Source: a virus
IMG/VR virus record: IMGVR_UViG_3300025030_000418
Coordinates: 1 to 23,813 of that record
Direction: 5' to 3' (one strand)
Length of the DNA stretch: 23,813 nt
Both the position numbers and the translations under genes were made by a program. The notes under the pieces are model-generated. The model saw only the letters and a program-made list of their open reading frames with translations. It made no database searches and was not told the origin of the DNA. Below are positions 4,429 to 20,948 of the stretch, piece after piece (positions within the stretch are counted from its first letter, which is position 1; every line of letters begins with the position of its first letter).

Positions 4429-4500
4429 TTATCTTCATGTGACTAAAAATTCTGTTGGTAATTCAAAAATATTTTCTAAGGATCCAGAAATTACCTTAAT
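4429..4500 (-). repeat. Orphan copy of the 3' end of the upstream structural gene
   Basis: The last codons of the GIY-YIG gene encode S-G-S-L-E-N-I-F-E-L-P-T-E-F-L-V-T and match the C-terminus of the structural gene at 5239 (S-G-S-L-K-N-I-Y-E-L-P-V-S-F-K-V-V-R). After the endonuclease TGA the same frame continues AGA TAA, three bases, ATG, exactly as at the end of the structural gene. The protein pattern is kept but many synonymous positions differ. Confidence 0.8.
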
Positions 4501-5235
4501 CTTCTGTTTATTAAAATTTTTCCACCTAGTTTTTGCAGCATCTGACATTTTTTTAATAGTCTGATTAGAAAATTTTCTATTGGTGAGAGAATTTCTTTGT
4601 TTTTCTTTATATATTTTCATTTTATTATCTGCTTCTATTTTCCCATATTTTTCAACCCATGTGTTATATAAATTTTTTCCATATCTTGAATTATTTTTTC
4701 CTTTAGAAGTGCCCCGCACTATCATTATGTTGGAAATTTTTAATTTTTCTAATGCGCTCTTTATTCTACTATATGCACATTTTTTAGAACAATGTTTCTT
4801 ATACCAGCCTCTATTAAATTCATTTAATGTTAAACATAGTGTATACTTATTTTTACATTTTAAACATTCTAATATATAATTAAATCTTGGACACATCTTA
4901 GATATAGATAATTTATGTATTGCTTCTATTGATAATAATCCACCTTCACCACCATGTGTCATATTACACAAGTTGTCAATTCCTATTTCTTTAATTCTAC
5001 TAATTTCTTTTTGAAAACATTCTTGTTCATTTTCTGATTCAAAAGTTTTATTATATATTGGTTCTAATTTTTCGTCTATTAATTGTTTTAATTTATTTTC
5101 TAAGTGTTTATTAATTAAAGTTTTATTATTTTTTACTTTTTTAAAATGCTGATGCATTCTATTATTTTTGCCTTTTCCAACATAGAATATTAAATTAGTT
5201 CTTGGATCAACTAACTCATATGTATAATATATCAT
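4435..5235 (-). CDS. GIY-YIG homing endonuclease (266 aa) ending in a structural-gene relic
   Basis: The N-terminal GIY-YIG nuclease domain is clear: Y-T-Y at residues 4-6 and F-Y-V-G-K-G at 17-22 form the two signature strands, with R26 as the likely catalytic arginine and the typical N-M-T-H-G-G-E-G-G end of the domain near residue 93. A zinc-finger-like segment follows (C-L-K-C, then H-C-S-K-K-C, about residues 121-153), and a basic DNA-binding tail. It is a free-standing mobile gene whose product would cut an endonuclease-less allele to spread itself. The ATG (5233-5235) lies 3 nt after the stop of the upstream structural gene. The last 17 residues are homologous to the C-terminus of that gene rather than to endonucleases, so the frame has run into a relic of the original 3' end. 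Confidence 0.9.
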   Translation of the reverse strand: MIYYTYELVDPRTNLIFYVGKGKNNRMHQHFKKVKNNKTLINKHLENKLKQLIDEKLEPIYNKTFESENEQECFQKEISRIKEIGIDNLCNMTHGGEGGLLSIEAIHKLSISKMCPRFNYILECLKCKNKYTLCLTLNEFNRGWYKKHCSKKCAYSRIKSALEKLKISNIMIVRGTSKGKNNSRYGKNLYNTWVEKYGKIEADNKMKIYKEKQRNSLTNRKFSNQTIKKMSDAAKTRWKNFNKQKIKVISGSLENIFELPTEFLVT

Positions 5236-5307: not shown

Positions 5308-6327
5308 CCTTATATTATAGTATCTAGAGGGATGAAACGAATTCATCCAGATATTGAAAAAACTTCCACTGGAATCACAAGAGATTTTAGTGCTCCCTGT
5401 ATCAAATGGTATTAGAGTGTGTAATGATTGAGCATCTACAATCGAATAATAAGAAGATGATGGTAAATATTGCAACATTTCATATGCATTATTAATTGAA
5501 TATGATCTCCTTGGATATTTTTTTCTAACACCAAGTCTTATTTGTACTTTTTCTCCGTTATTATATTCACTGTCCATGTTCTTCGCATATATGTACATAT
5601 CGGTCATATTAGAAGAAGTTAAACTTCCAGTTATAAATGAAGAATCATCCCATGCTACTTCTAATTTAGGATTATATATTGTATTAGTATCTATAGAATA
5701 AAATTGTAAATAACCATAGTCTTTAGTATTAGTTTCTTCTGAATCTGATCTCTTAATTAAAAATCCATTGTTTACATAAGACTCATTAAACCAATTATTT
5801 ACTATACTTGTAACATCAGCCCTTAAATCTGCTAATTCATATGTATAATGACCAGACGATTGAAATGTATTTTCGTTAGACCACAAAGAAGTTGTTACAA
5901 TATCAGCCAAAATATAATCTGAACCAGTTGCATCCCAATAAGTTGGAACATCACCATCACTAGCTGTCCAGCTCGCACCTGCAGTTCTAATAGGATAGTC
6001 AAATCTTTTACCAACACCTTGTACCCAACTTGATGAAATTGGGTATATGTAAAGATTAGTAGTTTGTTCTTGATTTTTTGCAGTACAAATATACATATTT
6101 AAATAAAATCTAGGATTAGCAATTGTACCGTCAACAATGGATTGAGAAATATCAGTTAGATCAAACTGAACTAGCGCACGCGAGTTAATAGTTGACACTA
6201 TAGCTGAACTATAACTTGCCGAAGAAAAAGTCTTAATAATTTCTAGAATTTCGTCACGACCACAATTCTGTGTGGGATGATCCGAATATATAGTTGTATC
6301 GACACGCGCAAATTTAAGGTAATGCAT
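5239..6327 (-). CDS. Virion structural protein with DNRLRE-like beta domain (362 aa)
   Basis: The protein begins near residues 8-20 with D-T-T-I-Y-S-D-H-P-T-Q-N-C-G and continues with S-R-A-L-V-Q-F-D-L-T-D-I. This is the usual layout of DNRLRE/CBM96-type domains (a strand, exposed loops, then a 'L-x-x-F-D-L' strand), common in surface and phage appendage proteins. The remainder is beta-rich with many Ser, Tyr and Asn. It lies directly after gp6, so a baseplate or tail-appendage role is likely. I choose ATG 6325-6327 over the GTG three bases earlier, because a GGGAG (6335-6339) then sits 7 nt away, the same spacing as for the gp6 gene. That ribosome site lies inside the preceding endonuclease gene, which overlaps this gene by 14 nt. 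Its 3' end is duplicated beyond the GIY-YIG gene. Confidence 0.75.
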   Translation of the reverse strand: MHYLKFARVDTTIYSDHPTQNCGRDEILEIIKTFSSASYSSAIVSTINSRALVQFDLTDISQSIVDGTIANPRFYLNMYICTAKNQEQTTNLYIYPISSSWVQGVGKRFDYPIRTAGASWTASDGDVPTYWDATGSDYILADIVTTSLWSNENTFQSSGHYTYELADLRADVTSIVNNWFNESYVNNGFLIKRSDSEETNTKDYGYLQFYSIDTNTIYNPKLEVAWDDSSFITGSLTSSNMTDMYIYAKNMDSEYNNGEKVQIRLGVRKKYPRRSYSINNAYEMLQYLPSSSYYSIVDAQSLHTLIPFDTGSTKISCDSSGSFFNIWMNSFHPSRYYNIRIEVVSGSLKNIYELPVSFKVVR

Positions 6328-7180
6328 CACTTATCTCCCATTCTCTAAGTTCTATAAATTTACAATTGAGTAAAGAAACAATTTCTTGTTTTCTACCTTC
6401 ATCTCTATTAACTTTATTTTTATGAGCTCTCTCATAATATTCTATTACAGTATTTCGAATCTTATCATATCCGTCTACCCAATAACCCAGAGTTTTAATA
6501 TAAAATTCTCCACCATTTTCTGCATGTTGAAAGTTATAACCATTAGCTTTACCGTATTCGTCTATAATTTTGCAAGCTTCTATATTATAATTTGGGTATA
6601 GTTTACCATTATTGTTTAATTTAGATTCCTTATATTTTAAATAAGCTAATCTCATTTTTAATTTAGCATCATCAGAAACATGTTTACCCTTGTTATTTTT
6701 ATTACCAATGTTCACATTCCTTAACATAGATTTTAATTTATTTGCCTTTTTCTCACCATATAATTCTTCATATGTTTTACCACGTATAGAATCAAAGTGC
6801 TTATTCATTTTATCTATGACATCTTGTCGTTTCATTGCTAGTTTTGTTGCTATAGAAATCTTTTTTCTTTCTTCTGAATTTTCGTAATGTTTTCTATTAC
6901 CAACGGATATTTTGTCTCTTATTTCCTTACTTCTATGTGTTCCATAACGAGGATTATTTTTTCCAGACAATGAAATTGATATTTTTTTTCTAACATCTAA
7001 CCGTTTACTAGGGTTTTTGTTACCCATTTTTTGAATAGATAATTTTTTTCTAACATCAATTCTACATGCGGGATTTTTATCTCCAGTAATACTTATTCCA
7101 TAACATTGTCTAGAACAATATTTTTTATTTTTATTAGTTGCTTTAAATTTTACACCGCAGAGTATACATTTTTTATACAC
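6314..7180 (-). CDS. Homing endonuclease, Vsr/EDxHD-like family, with zinc finger and NUMOD3 repeats (288 aa)
   Basis: Modular mobile endonuclease. Residues 5-26 are a zinc finger (C5-x2-C8, C22-x3-C26). Residues about 32-185 carry repeated NUMOD3-like DNA-binding units (G-x-K-N-P-x-x-R-x-D-V-R-K-K-I-S). The C-terminal ~95 residues are shared with three other genes here and contain Y-W-V-D-G-Y-D, then V-I-E-Y-Y-E-R-A-H, then R-D-E-G-R-K-Q-E-I, a pattern fitting the Vsr-like EDxHD/PD-(D/E)xK nucleases. It starts with GTG overlapping the TAG of gp6 (TAGTG) behind a strong GAGGAG, and its last codons overlap the start of the next structural gene. It is inserted between two tail genes. The nuclease family name is by motif only; homing-endonuclease status is firm from the NUMOD repeats and position. 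Confidence 0.85.
   Translation of the reverse strand: MYKKCILCGVKFKATNKNKKYCSRQCYGISITGDKNPACRIDVRKKLSIQKMGNKNPSKRLDVRKKISISLSGKNNPRYGTHRSKEIRDKISVGNRKHYENSEERKKISIATKLAMKRQDVIDKMNKHFDSIRGKTYEELYGEKKANKLKSMLRNVNIGNKNNKGKHVSDDAKLKMRLAYLKYKESKLNNNGKLYPNYNIEACKIIDEYGKANGYNFQHAENGGEFYIKTLGYWVDGYDKIRNTVIEYYERAHKNKVNRDEGRKQEIVSLLNCKFIELREWEISDALP
6335..6339 (-). promoter_or_regulatory. Shine-Dalgarno GGGAG for the DNRLRE-like gene, inside endonuclease codons
   Basis: The endonuclease codons GAA TGG GAG (E-W-E) contain GGGAG, followed by 7 nt and then the ATG at 6325-6327. The endonuclease thus supplies the ribosome binding site of the structural gene. Confidence 0.7.
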
Positions 7181-9057
7181 TATTGACTCCTCACAAAAAT
7201 ATCTGAATTAGGATATTTTACCTGAAAAATTGATGGATCTAAAGACGTAAATACTACTCCATTAATAGTTGCAGACTGTATTCCATAAAAATTATTTGAA
7301 TATTGTTCCCCTGTTGAATCATATTTATTAGTTATTCGCACATCTGACACTGTTCTTACACCATCTACATTGTCCAATAAATTATAGATTTCTGATAATA
7401 TAATTGGCATTCCAATGGACCACTTATCAATTTCGAAGTACTTTTTTAATTCATTTACACACTGCAGGGAAACTTCCCTTTTATTAATTACATTCTGAAA
7501 TACAATTATATCTACATCTATTCCAATATCTATTATATATGCATCTTTTATATTTACCGCATCCGTTACCATTCTATAATTATCTAAATAAAATTTTAGA
7601 TTGTTTTTTATAGCTGCATTTAAAGGTATTAAGTGTTTATTTGAATCATATGCTAAACAATATGCATTTAAAGCTAAAGGATTTATAAATCTTATATTAT
7701 AATTAGTATTATCTTGTATAGTCTTACTATTCAATATCTGTGTATCTTGTTCTATCTTAACCTTAGCCACACTTCCATATTTAGGGTGCATAGAAAGTAT
7801 TCTTATCTCATAATCTTCTCTTGTTACACATCTGTCTTGGGCAGAAAAATATGCTAAGGCATTATTTCTTATATCCTCGATAGTTTCAGCTCCTTTAGAC
7901 CCGACTGCAGGCGTAGAATTTATAACTGCTACTGATGACTTTACTCTATTTAATAAAGCCGCATCTAATCCAGTATCATCGATTTCAACTATTGTTTTTG
8001 TTACAATATTAATATCTCCAGTAGCTACGTTTGCCCTCTCATCAGTACCTCTTACATAGACAATAGTCAACGTTGTATTGTTTGGTATTTGACCATAAGT
8101 TCTAGTACTTAAAAAACTCCGTGGATCAAGTGGCATATTAAAATATGTATATCCAACATTTTTTGGATTAGGAATTATCATTTCATCTGGATATGCAGAT
8201 GTACCTGCACCAAATTGAATTTCTGTTCTTCCATCTGCTCTTATTTTTTTAATAAATCTCTTTGCTACTTTTTTATATCTCAATAAATAGGGTACAGTTC
8301 TACTATATGAAGACAAATTGTCTTGATCTATCAATTCTGTCTTGACACTTTCTAAAATTGTATCTTGTGCTAAATAAGGTACTTGGTACCAATTATTCCT
8401 GTTAGAATCAACAACACTAACTATATCAATAATATCATTATCTGGTAATATAATAGTTAAATATTTTTCTAGAGATGTTATAGTAAAATCTTTTTCTACT
8501 ATTATACCAGAGGATGCAGGTACACTTTTCTTTAATAGAAAATAAGTTACTTCATCTCCTGCTGAGTTCGTCTCATATACTGTTATTTCAGTAGGATATG
8601 AACCAGATTCAGCAAAATCAATTACATCATCCACTCTAAATATTATATCAGAATTAGTTTCTGATACTGCTTTAAGATCAGAAATCCTCAGTGCATATCT
8701 CCAGTCAGGAGTAAAAGGAAATCCTGTTGCTGGAATAACTTGATACACATCTAAAGTAGTATAAGAAACACCTCCTAGTTTAGGTATATAACCAAGTGCA
8801 TATGCTCCATTAATAACATTTGTTTTATTTTGGGCCAATTGTATGAATGATTCTCTTAATTGAATGTCTGTATATAAAGATAGTATATCAGACACGTATG
8901 ATGCTATTTCGATCATCATCATCCCAGTTGAAGCCTGAGAAAAATCTTGATAATCATCTGGAAAATAAACTTTAGTAAAATCAATCAGGTTATTTCTAAT
9001 AGTTTTAAAATCTTTGTTTAAATATAAAACATCCTTCAAAACATTACGTGATGGCAT
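7180..9057 (-). CDS. 6: Baseplate wedge protein gp6-like (baseplate J family), 625 aa
   Basis: This is the counterpart of T4 gp6, which forms the inner ring of the baseplate wedges and links neighbouring wedges. Length is close to T4 gp6 (660 aa). The N-terminus shows the family layout: I-R-N-N-L-I-D-F-T-K (20-29), D-D-Y-Q-D-F (34-39), then M-M-M-I-E-I-A-S-Y-V-S-D-I-L-S-L-Y-T-D (46-64) and the E-S-F-I-Q-L-A helix, with A-L-G-Y-I-P (87-92). In the second half, G-A-E-T-I-E-D-I-R-N-N-A followed by R-C-V-T-R-E-D-Y-E (about 384-410) is the baseplate-J signature. The ATG at 9055-9057 has GGGAG 7 nt upstream inside the preceding endonuclease gene, which overlaps by 14 nt. It follows gp25, as in T4-like phages. 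Confidence 0.92.
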   Translation of the reverse strand: MPSRNVLKDVLYLNKDFKTIRNNLIDFTKVYFPDDYQDFSQASTGMMMIEIASYVSDILSLYTDIQLRESFIQLAQNKTNVINGAYALGYIPKLGGVSYTTLDVYQVIPATGFPFTPDWRYALRISDLKAVSETNSDIIFRVDDVIDFAESGSYPTEITVYETNSAGDEVTYFLLKKSVPASSGIIVEKDFTITSLEKYLTIILPDNDIIDIVSVVDSNRNNWYQVPYLAQDTILESVKTELIDQDNLSSYSRTVPYLLRYKKVAKRFIKKIRADGRTEIQFGAGTSAYPDEMIIPNPKNVGYTYFNMPLDPRSFLSTRTYGQIPNNTTLTIVYVRGTDERANVATGDINIVTKTIVEIDDTGLDAALLNRVKSSVAVINSTPAVGSKGAETIEDIRNNALAYFSAQDRCVTREDYEIRILSMHPKYGSVAKVKIEQDTQILNSKTIQDNTNYNIRFINPLALNAYCLAYDSNKHLIPLNAAIKNNLKFYLDNYRMVTDAVNIKDAYIIDIGIDVDIIVFQNVINKREVSLQCVNELKKYFEIDKWSIGMPIILSEIYNLLDNVDGVRTVSDVRITNKYDSTGEQYSNNFYGIQSATINGVVFTSLDPSIFQVKYPNSDIFVRSQ

Positions 9058-9538
9058 TTTTCATCTCCCATTCTTTAAGTTCTATAAATTTACAACCTAA
9101 ATATTCTATAATTTCCTGTTTTCTTCTTTCATCTTTATCTACGCGTCTTTTATGTGCATTTTCATAATATTCAATCACAACATTTTTAGTCTTATCATAT
9201 CCATCTACCCAATATCCTAGTTCTGGTATTCTATATTCTCCGCCATTTTCTGCGTGTTGAAAATTGTACCCGTTAGCTTTACCATATTCTTCCATTATTT
9301 TACACGCTTCTATATTATAATTGGGCCATATTATACCATTTCTATCTTCAATTCTTTTAATTGCTGATAATCTTAAGCGGGTTTTATGTTCTGATGAAAA
9401 CTTTTTGTTTAAGTTGTTGTGTGCATTATAACAGTGTCGACATTCAGCATTATTAATAATTGCAGCAATTAAGTATTTTCTCTTTCTATAAATAATTTCT
9501 ATATTACACATAGGACAACTTCTTTTAAATTCTGGCAC
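9044..9538 (-). CDS. Homing endonuclease, Vsr/EDxHD-like family, short form with zinc finger (164 aa)
   Basis: It has the same C-terminal nuclease block as the genes at 6314 and 10541 (Y-W-V-D-G-Y-D, V-I-E-Y-Y-E-N-A-H, K-D-E-R-R-K-Q-E-I), preceded by the shared G-K-A-N-G-Y-N-F-Q-H-A-E-N-G-G-E. The N-terminus is a zinc finger (C8-x2-C11, C33-x2-C36) with only one short NUMOD3-like unit, so it is a trimmed version of the family. It starts with GTG at 9536-9538, AAGGA 6-8 nt upstream. It lies between the gp25 and gp6 genes: 9 nt after the gp25 stop, and overlapping the gp6 start by 14 nt. It is probably active in spreading, since the frame and motifs are intact. Confidence 0.85.
   Translation of the reverse strand: MPEFKRSCPMCNIEIIYRKRKYLIAAIINNAECRHCYNAHNNLNKKFSSEHKTRLRLSAIKRIEDRNGIIWPNYNIEACKIMEEYGKANGYNFQHAENGGEYRIPELGYWVDGYDKTKNVVIEYYENAHKRRVDKDERRKQEIIEYLGCKFIELKEWEMKNAIT
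9065..9069 (-). promoter_or_regulatory. Shine-Dalgarno GGGAG for gp6, inside endonuclease codons
   Basis: GGGAG within the GAA TGG GAG codons (E-W-E) of the endonuclease lies 7 nt before the gp6 ATG. The arrangement is the same as at 6335-6339. Confidence 0.7.
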
Positions 9539-10540: not shown

Positions 10541-11092
10541 TTATTCTTTAATTTCTATAAATTCACAATCTAAGTAACTGATGATTTCTTGTTTTCTTTT
10601 TTCATCTCGTTCCTCATAATATTTATGAGCTTTCTCATAATATTCTATTACCACGTTCTTAGTATTATCATATCCATCTACCCAGTAACCTAAGTCTGGT
10701 ATACGAAATTCTCCACCATTTTCAGCGTGTTGGAATAAATAACCGTTAGCTTTACCATATTCTTCTATTATAGGAATAGATTTTGGATTATAAAATGGAA
10801 TTAGTTGATTTCCATTTAATTTATTTTCTTCTATTCTTTTTATAGCTGACAACCGCATTTTTATTTTAGTTTCTTCAGAGTGCTGTTTTCCAAGCATACC
10901 CATTGAACTAGGTTTACCTTTGTTATCAATAGATATTTTTTTTCTAGTTTCTTCTGAAAGAACTTTACCTTTCTTCGCCTCAGACATTTTTTTCTTAGTT
11001 TCTTCTGAAAGTATTCTACCCTTTTGTACCTTAGACATATTTTTTCTAGCTTCTTCTGAGAATGGTTTTCTAGTATAGACTCCACTTGGCAT
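10541..11092 (-). CDS. Homing endonuclease, Vsr/EDxHD-like family, with four NUMOD3 repeats (183 aa)
   Basis: The N-terminal half is a run of NUMOD3 units of the form S-E-E-T-R-K-K-I-S-x-x-x-K-G-K at about residues 12-75, which wrap DNA in homing endonucleases. The second half is the shared nuclease block (L-G-Y-W-V-D-G-Y-D, V-I-E-Y-Y-E-K-A-H, R-D-E-K-R-K-Q-E-I) and ends E-F-I-E-I-K-E, without the E-W-E tail of its paralogues at 6314 and 9044. ATG 11090-11092 has AAGGAAA about 7 nt upstream. It is the first gene after a copy of the recurrent intergenic module, so it may have its own promoter. It stands between two unrecognised structural-operon genes. Confidence 0.85.
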   Translation of the reverse strand: MPSGVYTRKPFSEEARKNMSKVQKGRILSEETKKKMSEAKKGKVLSEETRKKISIDNKGKPSSMGMLGKQHSEETKIKMRLSAIKRIEENKLNGNQLIPFYNPKSIPIIEEYGKANGYLFQHAENGGEFRIPDLGYWVDGYDNTKNVVIEYYEKAHKYYEERDEKRKQEIISYLDCEFIEIKE

Positions 11093-12866: not shown

Positions 12867-13356
12867 TATTTTTACTTACATTTTGTATTAATTGTTTATC
12901 ATTAGAATTAATTTTTTCTTTAGCCAATTTTACTTTTTCTTCTAATTGTTTTAATGATTCATTTATTTCGTCATTATTAGCTGCTATTAAATCTGGAGTG
13001 TTACCTACTATTTGACGTTTTTCTTCTTCTGTAATAAACGGTTGCATAGGGTTTGTACCCATAAACCCAACTGGCTTATCTAATAAGCGTTGAATTATAG
13101 TTGCGAGTTTAACCAACTGATCGTCATTCTTTACTGAAATTTCTAATACTTCTTTCAAAATAGGCATCAAGATAGAAGTATCTGTAATGTTGGTCATTAA
13201 ATTTTTAACAGAATCTAATATAGCATCTATATTTTTTTGTTTAGATTTTGAATTGGTATAAATATCGGCAAATACATCTGATAATGATTTACCTAAAAAA
13301 ATCACACTATCCTTTGTTAGAGATTCTGTCATTATTTTTCCATTTACATTTGTCAT
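12850..13356 (-). CDS. Unrecognised helical protein upstream of the hub gene (168 aa)
   Basis: Predominantly helical, no Cys, no membrane segment. It has a possible coiled coil at the C-terminus (N-D-E-I-N-E-S-L-K-Q-L-E-E-K-V-K-L-A-K-E). ATG 13354-13356 has AGGTGG 4 nt upstream; a second ATG at 13330-13332 has no good ribosome site. The start lies inside the GIY-YIG gene (50-nt overlap in another frame), and the end overlaps the hub gene by 17 nt. It is the first non-mobile gene of the structural operon. A tail assembly factor or tape-measure-like accessory would fit, but no family is visible. Confidence 0.65.
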   Translation of the reverse strand: MTNVNGKIMTESLTKDSVIFLGKSLSDVFADIYTNSKSKQKNIDAILDSVKNLMTNITDTSILMPILKEVLEISVKNDDQLVKLATIIQRLLDKPVGFMGTNPMQPFITEEEKRQIVGNTPDLIAANNDEINESLKQLEEKVKLAKEKINSNDKQLIQNVSKNNDTSK

Positions 13357-14197
13357 TATGCCACCTAATTAAATTTAAAAGACTACACTTAATACCACAG
13401 TATACACACGTTTCTTTAGGACGATTCAACATACTATTTTTTAAGTTTTCCTTATGTTCTTTTGAAAATTTTCTACCTTTCAACGCTTCAGATAATTTAT
13501 TGCCCATTTCCATTAATTTTTTATTTGCAATTTCTTCACCAAACTTCTTCAACCAAATATTATATTGGTTTGTCCCATACATTAGATGATCATGTCCACG
13601 CTTTATTGAATTATTTTTTATTGATGTTTTTAAATAGCGCTCATACCTCTCTCTATATCTTTTATTCGCCTCTTCGTAACCATATTTCTTTGTTAAAATC
13701 TCCATAGTACTCCCTTGAAATTTTCTACGCGTGTAAGTATGTTTATGTCTCATATTATTTTTCCACTCTTTAGTAAAAGGTGGACGTGATTTGCCCCTCA
13801 GTCTATCTGCAAATTTTGATTTATTTTCTATTACTTCTGGACGTTTAAGGGATTCTCTGACTCCAATTGATATTTTTTCTTTATGTTCTACTGAGAGTTT
13901 TTTACCTTTCCTTGGACTCTGACATCCAGCGAATCCTCCCTCTCCACCATCACTAATATTGTATCCAATAGGAGGAAATGAATTAAATTTTTTAATAAAA
14001 TATTTTTCCTTCTTGTTTAACTCTGTCTCTGTAGAACATTCGGCTAAAATTTCTTTTTTAAAACATTTCTTACCATACTTCTGTATAGCATATTTGATCA
14101 ATTTTCCCGATCCAAAATAATTATCATCATTTTTGATATTCTTTCCAATATAAATTTTATTATTAATTAAATTGGTTATCATATAAATGTTGCTCAT
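13307..14197 (-). CDS. GIY-YIG homing endonuclease with NUMOD-type repeats and C-terminal zinc finger (296 aa)
   Basis: The nuclease domain is textbook: N-I-Y-M-I-T-N (3-9) and K-I-Y-I-G-K-N (14-20) are the two signature strands, then Y-F-G-S-G, a catalytic Glu near residue 64 (N-K-K-E-K-Y-F-I) and N-I-S-D-G-G-E-G-G closing the domain. NUMOD3-like units follow (S-V-E-H-K-E-K-I-S-I-G; later F-S-K-E-H-K-E-N-L-K-N-S). The end holds C-V-Y-C-G with R-W-H-N-D-K-C, a zinc finger. ATG with AAAGGA 5 nt upstream. It stands just after the terminator that closes the gp55 operon, first in the structural operon, and its last 50 nt overlap the start of the next gene. It is intact. Confidence 0.92.
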   Translation of the reverse strand: MSNIYMITNLINNKIYIGKNIKNDDNYFGSGKLIKYAIQKYGKKCFKKEILAECSTETELNKKEKYFIKKFNSFPPIGYNISDGGEGGFAGCQSPRKGKKLSVEHKEKISIGVRESLKRPEVIENKSKFADRLRGKSRPPFTKEWKNNMRHKHTYTRRKFQGSTMEILTKKYGYEEANKRYRERYERYLKTSIKNNSIKRGHDHLMYGTNQYNIWLKKFGEEIANKKLMEMGNKLSEALKGRKFSKEHKENLKNSMLNRPKETCVYCGIKCSLLNLIRWHNDKCKWKNNDRISNKG

Positions 14198-14306: not shown

Positions 14307-15080
14307 TTATTTAAAAAATACACCACTATTTCTGACTATAATACCATATTTCATAGATATTTCCCCGGTAGAATTATATTCATGTAATAAATGACAATAT
14401 ATGGACTTCATTTTGTTCAATATCCGTGTAATATTCTGTGCTCTACTGTTCGTCAGTTCTTTAATTAAAATATAAATATTTTTCTTATTAAAATTTTCAA
14501 TATCTTCATAGTTCTGTATTAACTGAAGTATTGCATACCCTATCTTTAAATCAACCTGTTTCTTAAATATCTTTTGTAAATTGTTATCAAAAAATTCTAT
14601 TATCATACCTACAAACTCTTTTTTTTCATCTTGAAAATTATCATATTCAACATGAAAATCTTTAATATCTAACGTTCTATTAATATCATCTTTTGACTCT
14701 TCTAAATTTATTCTAACCTCAGATTTTAATTTATTAAAGTTACTGTTGTTAGATATAATTAGATAGTTCCTTGCAGCATAAGTAAAATATGAAAATGCAT
14801 TTCCTTTTGCTATATCATACTTTTCTAGGTTCAACATCAGATGAGAAACTACTTCAACTTTTTTATTTCTAAATGTATCTGTAACATAAGGAAATTTCCA
14901 ATTATTTAATACATTTTCTGCTAGCTTTTCAAAAGAATACTTTATCCTAGTATTATAAATTTTATTTCGCGTCGTATGATCGTCTGACCTCACATATTCT
15001 ACGATTGCATCGTTTACTTCTGGCGGAAAATACATAACCTTTCTATTTTTAGGAATAATAGTTGTTTTATTTTTTATCAT
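14307..15080 (-). CDS. 55: gp55-like late-transcription sigma factor (257 aa)
   Basis: Resembles T4 gp55, the minimal sigma factor that directs host RNA polymerase to late promoters (TATAAATA in T4). The diagnostic part is residues about 16-110 from this start: F-P-P-E-V-N-D-A-I-V-E-Y, a helix rich in Leu/Ala, F-P-Y-V-T-D-T-F-R, then Y-D-I-A-K-G-N-A-F-S-Y-F-T-Y-A-A-R-N-Y-L-I (88-108), which corresponds to the sigma region 2 core 'F-D-P-x-x-x-x-x-x-A-Y-F-T' of gp55. The C-terminal half is helical and basic. T4 gp55 is 185 aa, so this one is longer. The start is uncertain: ATG 15078-15080 is chosen, while a GTG at 15105-15107 in the same frame (9 more codons) is possible. It overlaps the preceding gene and is last before the terminator. 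Confidence 0.75.
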   Translation of the reverse strand: MIKNKTTIIPKNRKVMYFPPEVNDAIVEYVRSDDHTTRNKIYNTRIKYSFEKLAENVLNNWKFPYVTDTFRNKKVEVVSHLMLNLEKYDIAKGNAFSYFTYAARNYLIISNNSNFNKLKSEVRINLEESKDDINRTLDIKDFHVEYDNFQDEKKEFVGMIIEFFDNNLQKIFKKQVDLKIGYAILQLIQNYEDIENFNKKNIYILIKELTNSRAQNITRILNKMKSIYCHLLHEYNSTGEISMKYGIIVRNSGVFFK

Positions 15081-15387
15081 TTTGTTCTTTATTAGTTTCT
15101 TCTTCACTAATCATACCTGCTATATTATTATTTAATTTTAATATTTCTTTTCGAAGTGCCTGATAAAAATAACCCACATCATCATCACCTTCAAATATAT
15201 GGTTTACATCTAATTGTAAAATTCTATCTAATGCAGCTTGCATAAAGTCTTTTATACCTTCTAAAATAGTGAGATCATCATTAGCCATCTCTTCCAATTT
15301 ACTATTTTTCTTATACATAACTCTAAGTGCATATGTTTCACTTAGTATTATAATAACCAACAATATTATTAATAAGTAACTTATCAT
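15067..15387 (-). CDS. Small membrane-anchored protein (106 aa)
   Basis: Residues 2-20 are a single hydrophobic segment (I-S-Y-L-L-I-I-L-L-V-I-I-I-L-S), then a basic stretch (M-Y-K-K-N-S-K), so an N-terminal anchor with an inner-face or periplasmic helical domain. An acidic patch E-G-D-D-D-V-G lies mid-protein, and the C-terminus is charged. ATG overlaps the HD gene stop as ATGA, with a strong GGAGGT 5 nt upstream. The frame overlaps the gp55-like gene at its end. No family is recognised. Its neighbours suggest it is expressed with the HD hydrolase and the sigma factor. Confidence 0.65.
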   Translation of the reverse strand: MISYLLIILLVIIILSETYALRVMYKKNSKLEEMANDDLTILEGIKDFMQAALDRILQLDVNHIFEGDDDVGYFYQALRKEILKLNNNIAGMISEEETNKEQNDKK

Positions 15388-16127
15388 CTAGTACCTCCAT
15401 TTAAACTATTTTTTAATGCTCTTAATGCTTCTTGTGGGATATGTAGCTTTTGTTTAGGAAAAGAAACATTACTTTCTTTCTTTGGTTTATCATGAACTTT
15501 GTATTCATCTTTTTCGATTTGACATGCCAACATATCTGCTTGATGTAATATAGTTGGTAATTTACTTCTTAATTGACGATCTTCTGTATAATTAACCAAA
15601 TATGCTTTATTTCCCTCATCGTACATACCATCGTGTAGTAAAATAGCAATCATTTCCTTTTGATTATATTTAACATCAAACTGTGAGAGCAACCAGAGTG
15701 ACCTATGAGGTACCTGCATATTCTCTATATTAGGGTTATGAATATATAGTTCACCTCTTTCTTTTCTCCATCTTTCATTATGTTCTACGAAATAAGGTTC
15801 CTTTAGATCTCCTATTTTTCCTAGATCATGATTAATAGCGGTAAACACTAATTCTTCTAATGTATAATCCACTTGGGTAGAGTATTTTCTAATGACACCA
15901 TCTAAGTCAAGTGCTATTTGGTGTACACCTATTACATGCTTTAAATATCCACCTGGATATGCTCCGTGATAGAAATCTTTTCCAGATGCTGGAGCATATA
16001 ACATCCTATCTTGAAAATGATGATATAACTTCAAAAGATTTTCTCTTTTATCTAAAGCTATCTCACCGTGGATTATTTTTATAACCTTTTCCCAATTTTC
16101 TACTATCTGTTCTGGCGTTAATTTCAT
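15384..16127 (-). CDS. HD-domain metal-dependent phosphohydrolase (247 aa)
   Basis: HD superfamily hydrolases use a histidine/aspartate cluster to bind divalent metal and cleave phosphodiesters or nucleotides. The ligands are visible: H64 (Y-L-K-H), H100-D101 (A-I-N-H-D-L-G-K), and H195/D198 (H-Q-A-D). The preceding A-P-A-S-G-K-D-F-Y-H-G-A-Y-P-G-G-Y-L-K-H resembles the YhaM-type exoribonuclease HD domain (A-x-x-H-H-x-Y-x-G-G-L-L-x-H). The YhaM OB domain is absent, so substrate is open: RNA ends or nucleotides. ATG has GAGG 7 nt upstream. It lies 16 nt after the FkbM gene and overlaps the next gene by 4 nt. Confidence 0.85.
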   Translation of the reverse strand: MKLTPEQIVENWEKVIKIIHGEIALDKRENLLKLYHHFQDRMLYAPASGKDFYHGAYPGGYLKHVIGVHQIALDLDGVIRKYSTQVDYTLEELVFTAINHDLGKIGDLKEPYFVEHNERWRKERGELYIHNPNIENMQVPHRSLWLLSQFDVKYNQKEMIAILLHDGMYDEGNKAYLVNYTEDRQLRSKLPTILHQADMLACQIEKDEYKVHDKPKKESNVSFPKQKLHIPQEALRALKNSLNGGTR

Positions 16128-16143
16128 TATATGACCTCTTATA

Positions 16144-16824
16144 TTATTTGTAACATCTTATGGTTTTACCCCAACTTGTTATATTATTTTTTATGGGATC
16201 AACATATGTAAAATTCTTATTTAAAATATTTGATACCTCTTCTAACTTATTATTATTATCTTTTACATTAGATGGGTAGTGCCACTCAAATATAAACTCA
16301 ACTATATTTTTCCAATTTTCAATTCCTTTTATTAATTCATATTCATAACCTTCTACATCCATTTTTATCTTATTAATATTATATTTACTTATTGCCTTAT
16401 TAATATTATAACACTCCACTGTAATTACTTTCATTTTTCTATGTTTTTCAGTTAAAGAATGACTGGAAGTATCTTTTCCGAGATTTACATAAAAAATCTT
16501 AGAGGAATCATTATCGCTAACTAGCGCCTTTTTAACTAAAATACAATTATCTATTTTATTTATTTCAATATTTTTCTCAAAAATATGACAACATTCTTCT
16601 TCTGGTTCAAAAGAAATAATACATTTTACAAAATCATGATAATATGTGGCAAATGTTCCTATGTTTCCACCACAGTCCAACCAAATATCATCTTTTGTAT
16701 AGTTACATCTATAAGATTCTTTTATAGTTGTACTATCTCTAGTATCTTTTCTAATAAATACTTTCTTATTATTTTTATATTTACTTCTGCTTTTAATTAT
16801 TTTTAATTTAAGTAATTCTTCCAT
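16144..16824 (-). CDS. FkbM-family SAM-dependent methyltransferase (226 aa)
   Basis: FkbM enzymes O-methylate sugars or small molecules. The SAM site is clear: I-W-L-D-C-G-G-N-I-G-T-F (48-58, glycine-rich motif I), I-S-F-E-P-E (70-75, acidic end of strand 2), and later I-K-M-D-V-E-G-Y-E-Y-E-L-I-K-G (about residue 160), the hallmark of the family. It ends W-G-K-T-I-R. ATG with AAGG 7 nt upstream. The gene follows the lytic transglycosylase and precedes the HD hydrolase. In a phage it may modify host surface glycans or a nucleotide-sugar, but the substrate cannot be seen. A 14-codon GTG-led frame with a better ribosome site overlaps its start. Confidence 0.85.
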   Translation of the reverse strand: MEELLKLKIIKSRSKYKNNKKVFIRKDTRDSTTIKESYRCNYTKDDIWLDCGGNIGTFATYYHDFVKCIISFEPEEECCHIFEKNIEINKIDNCILVKKALVSDNDSSKIFYVNLGKDTSSHSLTEKHRKMKVITVECYNINKAISKYNINKIKMDVEGYEYELIKGIENWKNIVEFIFEWHYPSNVKDNNNKLEEVSNILNKNFTYVDPIKNNITSWGKTIRCYK

Positions 16825-17847: not shown

Positions 17848-18489
17848 CTATTCTTTAATTTCTATAAATTTACAATTTAAATTTTTTATTATCTCTTGTT
17901 TTCTTCTTTCATCTCTATCAATATTTCTCTTATGATGCTTTTCATAATACTCAATAACTACGTTTCGAATCTTATCATATCCATCTACTCAATATCCAAG
18001 TTCTTTAATATGAAATTCGCCACCATTTTCTGCGTGTTGGAAGTTGTAACCATTTGCTTTACCAAATTCTTCTATGATAGGAATTGATTTTGGATTATAT
18101 GATGGAGTTAATTGGCCCCCACCTAACCTATTATCTTTTATACGTTTGATTGCAGATACTCTCATCAATCGTTTTGTTTCTTCTGTGCGCACTTCTCCAT
18201 GTTTACCTTTATTCCCGATAGATATTTTTAACTTTGTTTCTTCTATATGGTGTTTTCCATACATATTATTATTTTTACCTTTCTGCGCCTCAGATCTTCT
18301 TAACACTATTTCGTCTGAGTATTTATATCCTCTATTAGAATTTGATATTTTTTGTCTAGTTTCTTCGGTGTGTTGTTTCCCTTTACGCCCATTAGATATC
18401 TTAAGTCTTGTTTCTTCTGAGTGGTGTTTGCCCATGTGAGAATTAGACATTCCATTTCTTGTTTCTTCTAATCTTATATAATTTATCAT
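17848..18489 (-). pseudogene. Homing endonuclease of the Vsr/EDxHD-like family, broken by an in-frame TGA
   Basis: The frame starts at ATG 18487-18489 and carries four to five NUMOD3 units (S-E-E-T-R-L-K-I-S-N-G-R-K-G-K), then the shared nuclease region. At 17989-17991 a TGA replaces the Trp of the invariant L-G-Y-W-V-D-G-Y-D. Reading on in the same frame gives V-D-G-Y-D-K-I-R-N-V-V-I-E-Y-Y-E and R-D-E-R-R-K-Q-E-I, ending E-I-K-E at TAG 17848-17850. The first 166 codons alone lack the catalytic block. TGA is an ordinary stop elsewhere in the window (peptide deformylase, HD gene), so recoding is unlikely. There is no good ribosome site at the start. It follows the tmRNA 3' end and is bounded by a 9-bp copy of it. 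Confidence 0.85.
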
Positions 18490-18514
18490 CTAACTTTTAT
18501 ACCTAATTAAAATT

Positions 18515-18523
18515 GTGGACCAG
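18515..18523 (-). repeat. Proximal copy of the tmRNA 3' end (9-bp direct repeat)
   Basis: CTGGTCCAC on the minus strand is the 3' acceptor strand and discriminator of the tmRNA. It is repeated at 17839-17847 on the far side of the endonuclease pseudogene. Confidence 0.8.
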
Positions 18524-18916
18524 GGGATTTCGAAATCCCGTCTTGATAGTTCTTAGAAAGAATTCTGTTACAGGTTTAGTTAATTTATCTTCCGGTAATT
18601 TTAATGAGCTACAAATTAACAACATACTCAGGTTCTTTTTCGGATTTAGTTCCAGTGATACCTTACTAACTGCCTTTTTACTGTTATGCTCAGTTTTCCG
18701 ATATTCGACGTTCAATATTTATATCGGAGTCTAGATATTGAACGGTTAGCTTCTATTAAGCTAAAGCTACTTTCTCTACACCAACGAAGTCCATGGCATC
18801 TTCGAAAGTAAATGAAGATTTCTCTTCTGCATTTATTTTATTTTGTATTGTTAAGGTCAATAACTCCACCTGCGTTCCTATCTAGTTCTTTACCAATCGA
18901 ATCCAATTACTGGCCC
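18516..18916 (-). ncRNA. ssrA: Transfer-messenger RNA (tmRNA)
   Basis: tmRNA rescues stalled ribosomes: its alanine-acceptor end enters the A site, then a short internal frame is translated as a degradation tag. The 5' end GGGCCAG pairs fully (one G-U) with CTGGTCC at the 3' end, followed by discriminator A. TAATTGGATTCGATTGG after the 5' strand is the tRNA-like 5' signature. The T-arm region is GGGATTTCGAAATCCC. PK1: AGGT/ACCT with TATTG/CAATA just before the tag. The tag frame (18759-18830) runs from GCA to two stops, TAA TAG, which lie in the loop of a TTAGCTT/AAGCTAA hairpin, as in E. coli. PK2: CGTTCAATAT/ATATTGAACG with CCGATAT/ATATCGG. P2 arms (GCAGGT/ACCTGT, TTGGTA/TATCAA) also pair. 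CCA is not encoded. Length (about 400 nt) is near the usual 350-400. Mature ends are inferred from the acceptor pairing. Confidence 0.94.
18753..18830 (-). other. tmRNA tag reading frame (24 codons plus TAA TAG)
   Basis: The resume codon is most likely GCA at 18828-18830, about 15 nt after PK1. The peptide begins A-E-E-K-S-S-F-T-F-E-D, passes through A-M-D-F-V-G, and ends V-E-K-V-A-L-A. Common tags have about 8-14 residues ending L-A-A; this one is long and ends A-L-A, still fitting a ClpX-type C-terminal degron. The exact first codon (AAT or GCA) is inference. Confidence 0.8.
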
Positions 18917-20279: not shown

Positions 20280-20948
20280 TCATTGTATTGTCCAACCAGT
20301 CATCTTATAAGTAGATTCAAATTTTTTATATTTTGTTTCTAAGACTTGATCACCCTTACTTATTTTTACAATATCATTTCTACCATATTTTTTATCTGAC
20401 AGTATAGGTTGAGTCTTCTCATCTAAATCTGTAATCAATAATCCCATTGTATGTCCATACTCATGTTGAATGGCAACCACTTCTAACAATATTAAAAATA
20501 CAGAACGATCATATTTAACAATATTCATTTCTGCAGGTGTGATGCCAAACTGAACTGGTTTAGGCATGTTGTCCGCTTTAATAGTTACATTAATATGTCT
20601 ATGAATTATTGAATTTTTACGAGGAAGTGATAGACATGTTTCCCTATATGGAATTTGTTCATCTGATTCTGCTATTATATTAGGATTAATAAAATATAGT
20701 TTATTAATAACATTAACCACAAACACAGAATATGGTATACCTATTTGATTTGCCGTTAATGCGATACCATTGAGTCTTTTATTAGCAGATAAGGTTTTAA
20801 ATAATTTACCTGCTATCTTTTCTCCGAATTCTAGAGAATCAATATTACTACATGGATTCTCTAAATACTTAGAAAACTCAGGATCAGTTTTAGTAATAAT
20901 TTTACCGGGAGTACCCCAAAATTTATCAGGTTGATCTTCTAAAAACAT
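20280..20948 (-). CDS. def: Peptide deformylase (222 aa)
   Basis: Removes the N-formyl group from new polypeptides at the ribosome exit; the metal is held by one Cys and two His. All three motifs are present: G61-I-A-L-T-A-N-Q68 (motif 1, G-x-G-x-A-A-x-Q type), E103-T-C-L-S (motif 2, Cys105 ligand) and Q-H-E-Y-G-H (motif 3, H162-E163-H166). The usual H-E-x-D-H has Gly for Asp at position 165, and the first motif is G-I-A-L rather than G-x-G-L-A. Between motifs 2 and 3 the usual strands are present but longer. The C-terminus lacks the long bacterial extension. Phage deformylases are common in marine and T4-like phages. Stop TGA; start ATG with a weak AGAG upstream. Confidence 0.88.
   Translation of the reverse strand: MFLEDQPDKFWGTPGKIITKTDPEFSKYLENPCSNIDSLEFGEKIAGKLFKTLSANKRLNGIALTANQIGIPYSVFVVNVINKLYFINPNIIAESDEQIPYRETCLSLPRKNSIIHRHINVTIKADNMPKPVQFGITPAEMNIVKYDRSVFLILLEVVAIQHEYGHTMGLLITDLDEKTQPILSDKKYGRNDIVKISKGDQVLETKYKKFESTYKMTGWTIQ

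Follow-up and report, generated by a model that had tools for sequence, protein, structure and literature searches.

A phage-encoded tmRNA with a conserved motif inside its long tag

What does a phage gain from encoding its own tmRNA, and what does the length of the tag contribute? The DNA analyzed here (the window, a 23.8-kb IMG/VR fragment taken at its full length of 23,813 nt) comes from a T4-like tailed phage. An earlier note, made from the sequence alone, had proposed that this phage carries its own tmRNA with an unusually long tag. The presence of the tmRNA is now supported by a covariance model, by identity elements, by synteny with other phages and by a second sample.

Infernal (cmscan, Rfam) matched RF00023 over the full model (1-374) on the minus strand at 18916-18513, with 62.7 bits against a curated cut-off of 47 bits and an E-value of 1.5e-22 (3.6e-26 when scaled to one genome). 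The tmRNA on the minus strand of the window is genuine and of the one-piece type. The Infernal run was one of the checks suggested in the earlier note, and it returned this full-length match above the cut-off. Another, ARAGORN, did not call the tmRNA and called 0 genes in the window. This is probably because the T-loop has 6 nt, compared with 7 in all 41 relatives examined; ARAGORN is a detection heuristic, and a call by it is not a defining biochemical feature of tmRNA. A contig from another sample (L039) is 99.85% identical to the window over 8.9 kb, with 13 differing sites, none in the tmRNA. The odd T-loop is therefore not an assembly slip, and we rejected assembly error as its cause; the identical copy also speaks against a sequencing error.

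The RNA and its identity elements can be read directly (Table 1). The mature tmRNA runs from about 18916 to 18516, and the 3' end that the earlier note had placed at 18516 falls exactly on the discriminator A73, after which the gene encodes CAA, not CCA. The paired acceptor strands (7/7 pairs), the 5' signature, PK1 before the tag and the P2 arms that had been described were all seen again. The stems of PK1 have 4 and 5 bp, and the P2-type duplex that closes the RNA has a predicted energy of -14.2 kcal/mol. The G3.U70 alanine identity pair occurs in 42/42 distinct sequences compared, the window included. The tag frame has no start codon. Its 24 codons are followed by TAA TAG, as the first reading had it, with the stops in or at the hairpin loop.

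Table 1 Features of the tmRNA gene and its neighbours in the window.
Feature	Position	Strand	Basis
tmRNA (ssrA) gene	18513..18916	-	RF00023 full model; letter-for-letter copy in L039
Acceptor stem 5' strand GGGCCAG, G3 at 18914	18910..18916	-	7/7 pairs with 18517-18523
5' signature UUGGAUUCGA, D-loop region of tRNA-like domain	18897..18906	-	RF00023 alignment, strand reading
PK1, before tag	18846..18871	-	AGGU (18871-18868):ACCU (18857-18854) and UAUUG (18862-18858):CAAUA (18850-18846)
Tag reading frame, 24 codons, AEEKSSFTFEDAMDFVGVEKVALA, resume codon GCA at 18830	18759..18830	-	Matching tags in 77 IMG/VR stretches
Inner tag motif FTFEDAMDFV	18783..18812	-	L353 (found without the motif) and IMG/VR copies
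Stop codons TAA TAG	18753..18758	-	Directly after tag
7-bp hairpin UUAGCUU-AAUAG-AAGCUAA, stops in or at loop	18746..18764	-	Strand reading
Post-tag stem CGUUCAAUAUC / AAUAUUGAACG, PK2-type	18709..18744	-	RF00023 alignment, strand reading
T-arm GGGAU-UUCGAA-AUCCC, 5-bp stem, 6-nt loop	18524..18539	-	Strand reading
Acceptor stem 3' strand CUGGUCC, U70 at 18519	18517..18523	-	Pairs with 5' strand
Peptide deformylase, upstream neighbour kept in both tag classes	20280..20948	-	Pfam PF01327 2.8e-18; neighbourhood clustering
NUMOD3 homing-endonuclease-like ORF directly 3' of tmRNA	17989..18489	-	Pfam PF07460 8.9e-21
247-aa protein, conserved downstream neighbour; used for neighbour tree	15384..16127	-	Clustering; no Pfam match at 0.01
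106-aa membrane-type protein, conserved downstream neighbour	15067..15387	-	Neighbourhood clustering

The genes around the tmRNA all point in the same direction. Upstream are a NUDIX gene and the peptide deformylase gene, which as search bait found no relative. Downstream, past a NUMOD3 ORF that is probably an insertion outside the system, conserved phage genes follow. Homing-endonuclease-like ORFs are frequent in this fragment, with six in 24 kb of structural genes (4435-5235, 6314-7180, 9044-9538, 10541-11092, 13307-14197 and 17989-18489; the last by its NUMOD3 match, the other five by sequence resemblance). An FkbM-type methyltransferase (16144-16824; PF05050, 2.3e-12) also lies among the structural genes. 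The baseplate protein (7180-9057) has ~40-46% identity to proteins of Flavobacterium phages (immuto), Microcystis phage Mel-JY01 and the 484-kb uncultured phage LR756508.1. Further relatives come from contigs that were binned with genomes of Flavobacteriales and others, which makes a Bacteroidota host likely for the window phage.

Blind to the tag, we looked for tmRNAs in phage records that encode a related baseplate protein. In LR756508.1 the tmRNA lies ~12 kb from the baseplate gene, compared with ~9.5 kb in the window. A 181.6-kb phage contig (L353) yielded the tag ANEISDFTFEDALSFVSNEVAIAA; S.FTFEDA..FV is common to it and the window tag. This similarity was reached in 0/5000 shuffles, and the four differences within the shared motif are synonymous. 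A scan across IMG/VR with a codon-degenerate FTFEDA-x-x-FV pattern (the second base of the first x codon held at T) returned 79 stretches, 77 of which lie in a short tag-type frame with a stop 17-28 codons after the motif start. The 77 represent 51 distinct DNA sequences (45 of 24 aa, five of 25 aa and one of 34 aa), counts that are not of independent lineages, as IMG/VR contigs are fragments and many are near-identical. We defined the FTFEDA class as tags with S.FTFEDA[ML].FV, FTFEDA six codons after the start of the resume codon and a stop at 24-25 codons. The class consensus is [AN][ED]E[KIL]S[ST]FTFEDAM[AS]FVGA[DE]YAVAA, and the consensus tag is AEELSSFTFEDAMAFVGADYAVAA. The window tag belongs to the class so defined, and its C-terminus, KVALA, departs from the consensus YAVAA; an exact-DNA search of IMG/VR for the window tag end gave no match.

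Residues within the scan pattern are fixed by construction, so that their invariance in the 77 copies is not evidence, and only L353 and the unconstrained codons count. At pattern-free codons, pN/pS is 0.59 in frame and 0.34 over the last four codons, compared with 1.43 and 1.14 in the shifted frames. Ser5, outside the scan pattern, is invariant across TCT, TCA, TCC and TCG. The long frame is thus best read as translated and selected as a peptide. Synonymous codons vary across these tags while the amino acids are kept, and the long tag is maintained as a protein-coding stretch across many phages. Without knowledge of the motif, ARAGORN called a tmRNA in 53/78 FTFEDA loci, mostly with the same long tag, and RF00023 scored above the cut-off at all but one of 20 loci and, with both tag classes counted, in 47/50 records. 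One FTFEDA tmRNA is followed, ~2 kb downstream, by a GOLLD RNA containing a tRNA (L382:2961-3444; RF02032, 184.7 bits).

The second tag class came from tag-blind tmRNAs in three records (G021, G067 and G068). Its layout is G[DE].SL..L.IDWHLAEYD, then a linker whose length varies, then QPTYAYA(A), and we defined it by SL..L.IDWHL within the tag. The corresponding DNA pattern gave at least 65 copies with an intact tag, at least 54 of them distinct, with lengths of 34-43 aa except for one that has lost its stop. Synonymous variation affects the Leu, Ala, Ile and His codons, and the tags differ in length by whole codons. The resume context AAUUGGC is the same as in Flavobacteriia ssrA (tag GENNYALAA), so that IDWHL tags look like a host tag with an insert. 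In L195 (5265 onward), the TAA stop of an IDWHL tag has become CAA and the tag is extended to 49 aa. The window tag does not contain the IDWHL motif; homology between it and the IDWHL class was considered and rejected, as the alignment score was reached by 4320/5000 shuffles. Searching for solved structures resembling either tag returned none. As both scans used fixed patterns, the true spread of each class is underestimated.

Neighbour clustering revealed that both tag classes occupy the same locus, between the deformylase gene and the 247-aa and 106-aa genes. In a quick tree of the 247-aa neighbour, in which some branches are long, the phages whose tags are short (9-10 aa) are nested in the IDWHL group, two of the three cases having starred support, and six label changes are required for four labels. 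The nested short-tag phages and the label changes indicate that the tag type switched more than once at one locus.

Other tmRNA forms occur among the relatives. LR756508.1 has a candidate 36-aa tag, GVNNADYESAGFTAEDFAQMDGESLYHGSERKPAAV, with an odd C-terminus (L005:1501-1947; LR756508.1 92434-92880), for which ARAGORN gives GRRKPLSW; its alignment with the window tag was reached by 138/5000 shuffles. This tmRNA is near CCA-adding-enzyme-like and Thg1-like genes. Besides the full tmRNA, LR756508.1 carries a 112-nt RNA that corresponds to the tRNA-like domain of tmRNA (L007:1501-1612; LR756508.1 414804-414915; 58.2 bits), with G3.U70 and without tag or pseudoknots. For mycobacteriophage DS6A, a tRNA-like domain alone ('TLD only') was reported, and molecules of this type are said to inhibit tmRNA (PMC4131195). 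Two contigs of the same baseplate family have permuted two-piece tmRNAs (ARAGORN tmRNA*; L354:1526-1816 and L355:1514-1856), with the tags GEQVEMAMAA and GEHVEMAMAA.

The putative hosts differ from these phages in their tags: the tags of 30 Bacteroidia tmRNAs are 8-16 aa long (GENNYALAA, for example) and lack both motifs, and the FTFEDA pattern was absent from the 395 Bacteroidota genomes scanned. The description of the window tag as unusually long therefore holds relative to hosts, although tmRNA tags on record range overall from 8 to 35 aa (PMC8012679). We looked for SmpB and detected none in the 23.8 kb of the window, nor in most relatives, whose contigs are fragments. Two related contigs, L464 and L465 (134 and 254 kb), encode an FTFEDA tmRNA together with an intact SmpB that has the DKR motif. 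The smpB gene there lies between genes for TROVE/Ro60-like and CCA-adding-enzyme-like proteins, named by sequence resemblance. No SspB-like adaptor was found in 39 phage records. ClpP was present in 9/40 phage records; we did not take this as evidence, as these proteins may be prohead proteases.

Our preferred explanation, to which we assign a probability of roughly 60%, is a working phage trans-translation RNA in which a docking motif has been inserted in the tag ahead of an ordinary C-terminal degron. The anatomy and the known biology of tmRNA (PMC8012679) support an active phage tmRNA that uses host SmpB. The chain that we infer leads from charging and SmpB binding through tagging in vivo to docking and degradation. 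The RNA would be charged with alanine via G3.U70 and bound by SmpB, supplied by the host for most of these phages and by the phage itself for the two relatives. It would then enter ribosomes stalled on broken or non-stop mRNA, where translation would switch to the 24-codon tag. The ends of the tag appear ordinary and ssrA-like, with a short start (A-E-E) and an alanine-rich C-terminal degron, and between them lies the inserted, conserved, helix-like motif S.FTFEDAM.FV. This motif would most likely be a docking site through which phage-tagged products are picked up in the infected cell by a protease, unfoldase or adaptor. When stalling becomes frequent through the decay of host mRNA, the phage would in that way decide what happens to stalled proteins. 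The known ssrA tags combine an adaptor-binding part with a protease-binding end, and the Mesoplasma florum tag is read by its own Lon (mf-ssrA/mf-Lon), so that one protease can have a tag to itself (PMC8138137). By analogy with such two-part tags and the Mesoplasma precedent, the FTFEDA motif is most simply a docking site before a C-terminal degron.

A functional tmRNA could also have a tag whose extra length is passive, that is, an ordinary degron behind a neutral spacer with no docking role. This would agree with the 8-35 aa range of recorded tags, with the freely varying length of the IDWHL linker (34-43 aa tags) and with the 9-10 aa tags of phages at the same locus. However, S.FTFEDA[ML].FV holds one position in 51 distinct tags and in the blind-found L353, and SL..L.IDWHLA persists in at least 54 distinct tags; a neutral stretch would retain neither, and we consider a passive spacer quite unlikely. 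The earlier note had suggested that the RNA might clear ribosomes from cleaved host mRNA or re-route tagged proteins. The conserved motif favours a specific fate for tagged proteins, without showing which. If the tag were a re-routing or interference signal, it would give tagged proteins a fate other than degradation or titrate a protease or adaptor of the host. Related phages have two conserved inner motifs, unrelated to each other, at the same locus, as would be expected if each engaged a different partner, and Bacteroidia hosts use short tags without either motif. The C-termini, on the other hand, stay degron-like (AVAA, YAYAA), and among the free codons constraint is strongest at the C-terminus (pN/pS 0.34), which fits ordinary proteolysis and leaves re-routing or interference an unlikely reading.

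Decay of the tmRNA in the window phage would account for the shortened T-arm, the CCA that is not encoded and the homing-endonuclease-like ORF alongside. The 6-nt T-loop, unlike that of the relatives, the ARAGORN miss and a covariance-model score below those of the close relatives L401 and L406 (94.8 and 88.8 bits) all point that way. Against this, the acceptor pairs, PK1, the open tag frame and the motif are all intact, the same sequence occurs in a second sample, and many tmRNA genes in this set are without CCA, which an enzyme adds. We regard decay as very improbable.

The window tag is one of a large and apparently new group of long viral tags with a shared inner motif, which suggests that the virus controls what becomes of unfinished proteins in the infected cell. 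A broader and more tentative idea, which we would put at somewhat less than even odds, is that trans-translation has become programmable in this phage group: interchangeable motifs (FTFEDA, IDWHL and perhaps others) would hand stalled proteins to a partner of the phage's choosing, be it a protease, an adaptor or a phage protein, and not to the host's ordinary route. There has been no direct handle on why phages carry tmRNA, and these tags offer a first one. More than 100 distinct phage tag sequences sort into two conserved classes that differ from the sampled host tags; the classes share one locus, at which close relatives have switched to short tags. As every tag is a peptide short enough to test, it can be used to fish out its partner, and both motifs would double as new degrons. 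Automatic annotation hides many long tags: ARAGORN missed the window gene and often begins the long tags at an internal position, several IDWHL tags among them (it gives GNDQPTYAYAA where the tag has 36 aa and AEYAVAA where it has 24).

Phage tmRNA is already known, and the FTFEDA and IDWHL tag classes appear to be new. A tblastn search of 50,697 phage records found neither tag, blastn of the tmRNA region against phage records gave nothing meaningful, and the string FTFEDA was not found in the open literature searched (subscription papers and the tmRNA Website lay outside this search). Like the window phage, the Bxz1 group, Bacillus phage G and DS6A (PMC4131195), methylophage Melnitz (PMC9004378) and huge phages, sometimes with SmpB (PMC7162821), have a tmRNA gene in the phage genome. 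Such genes are rare in phages, as the earlier note had stated, only in a loose sense, being present in 2.3% of phage genomes in one count (PMC9004378). The annotated phage tags that we compared are ordinary and short (for example, ANSKNASAYALAA and DNSNVAFALAA), unlike the window tag.

With bacterial one-piece tmRNAs (E. coli ssrA, AANDENYALAA; Flavobacteriia, GENNYALAA), the window RNA has in common the whole-model match, G3.U70, PK1, the resume codon context, the stops in a hairpin and the degron-like tag end. It differs from them in its 24-aa tag with the inserted FTFEDA motif, its 6-nt T-loop and its carriage by a phage. Proteobacterial ssrA tags assisted by SspB follow the same two-part logic of an adaptor segment and a ClpX-binding end, but the FTFEDA motif is unlike their SspB-binding segment. 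The ssrA tags of Mesoplasma florum and Mollicutes are long. The mf-ssrA/mf-Lon system, with a long tag and a selective protease, is a working precedent for a long two-part tag, although the sequence and hosts differ and the gene there is chromosomal; the likeness is functional and not one of homology. As no record of an FTFEDA or IDWHL tag was found, the window RNA is therefore a member of the tmRNA family that is new in its tag.
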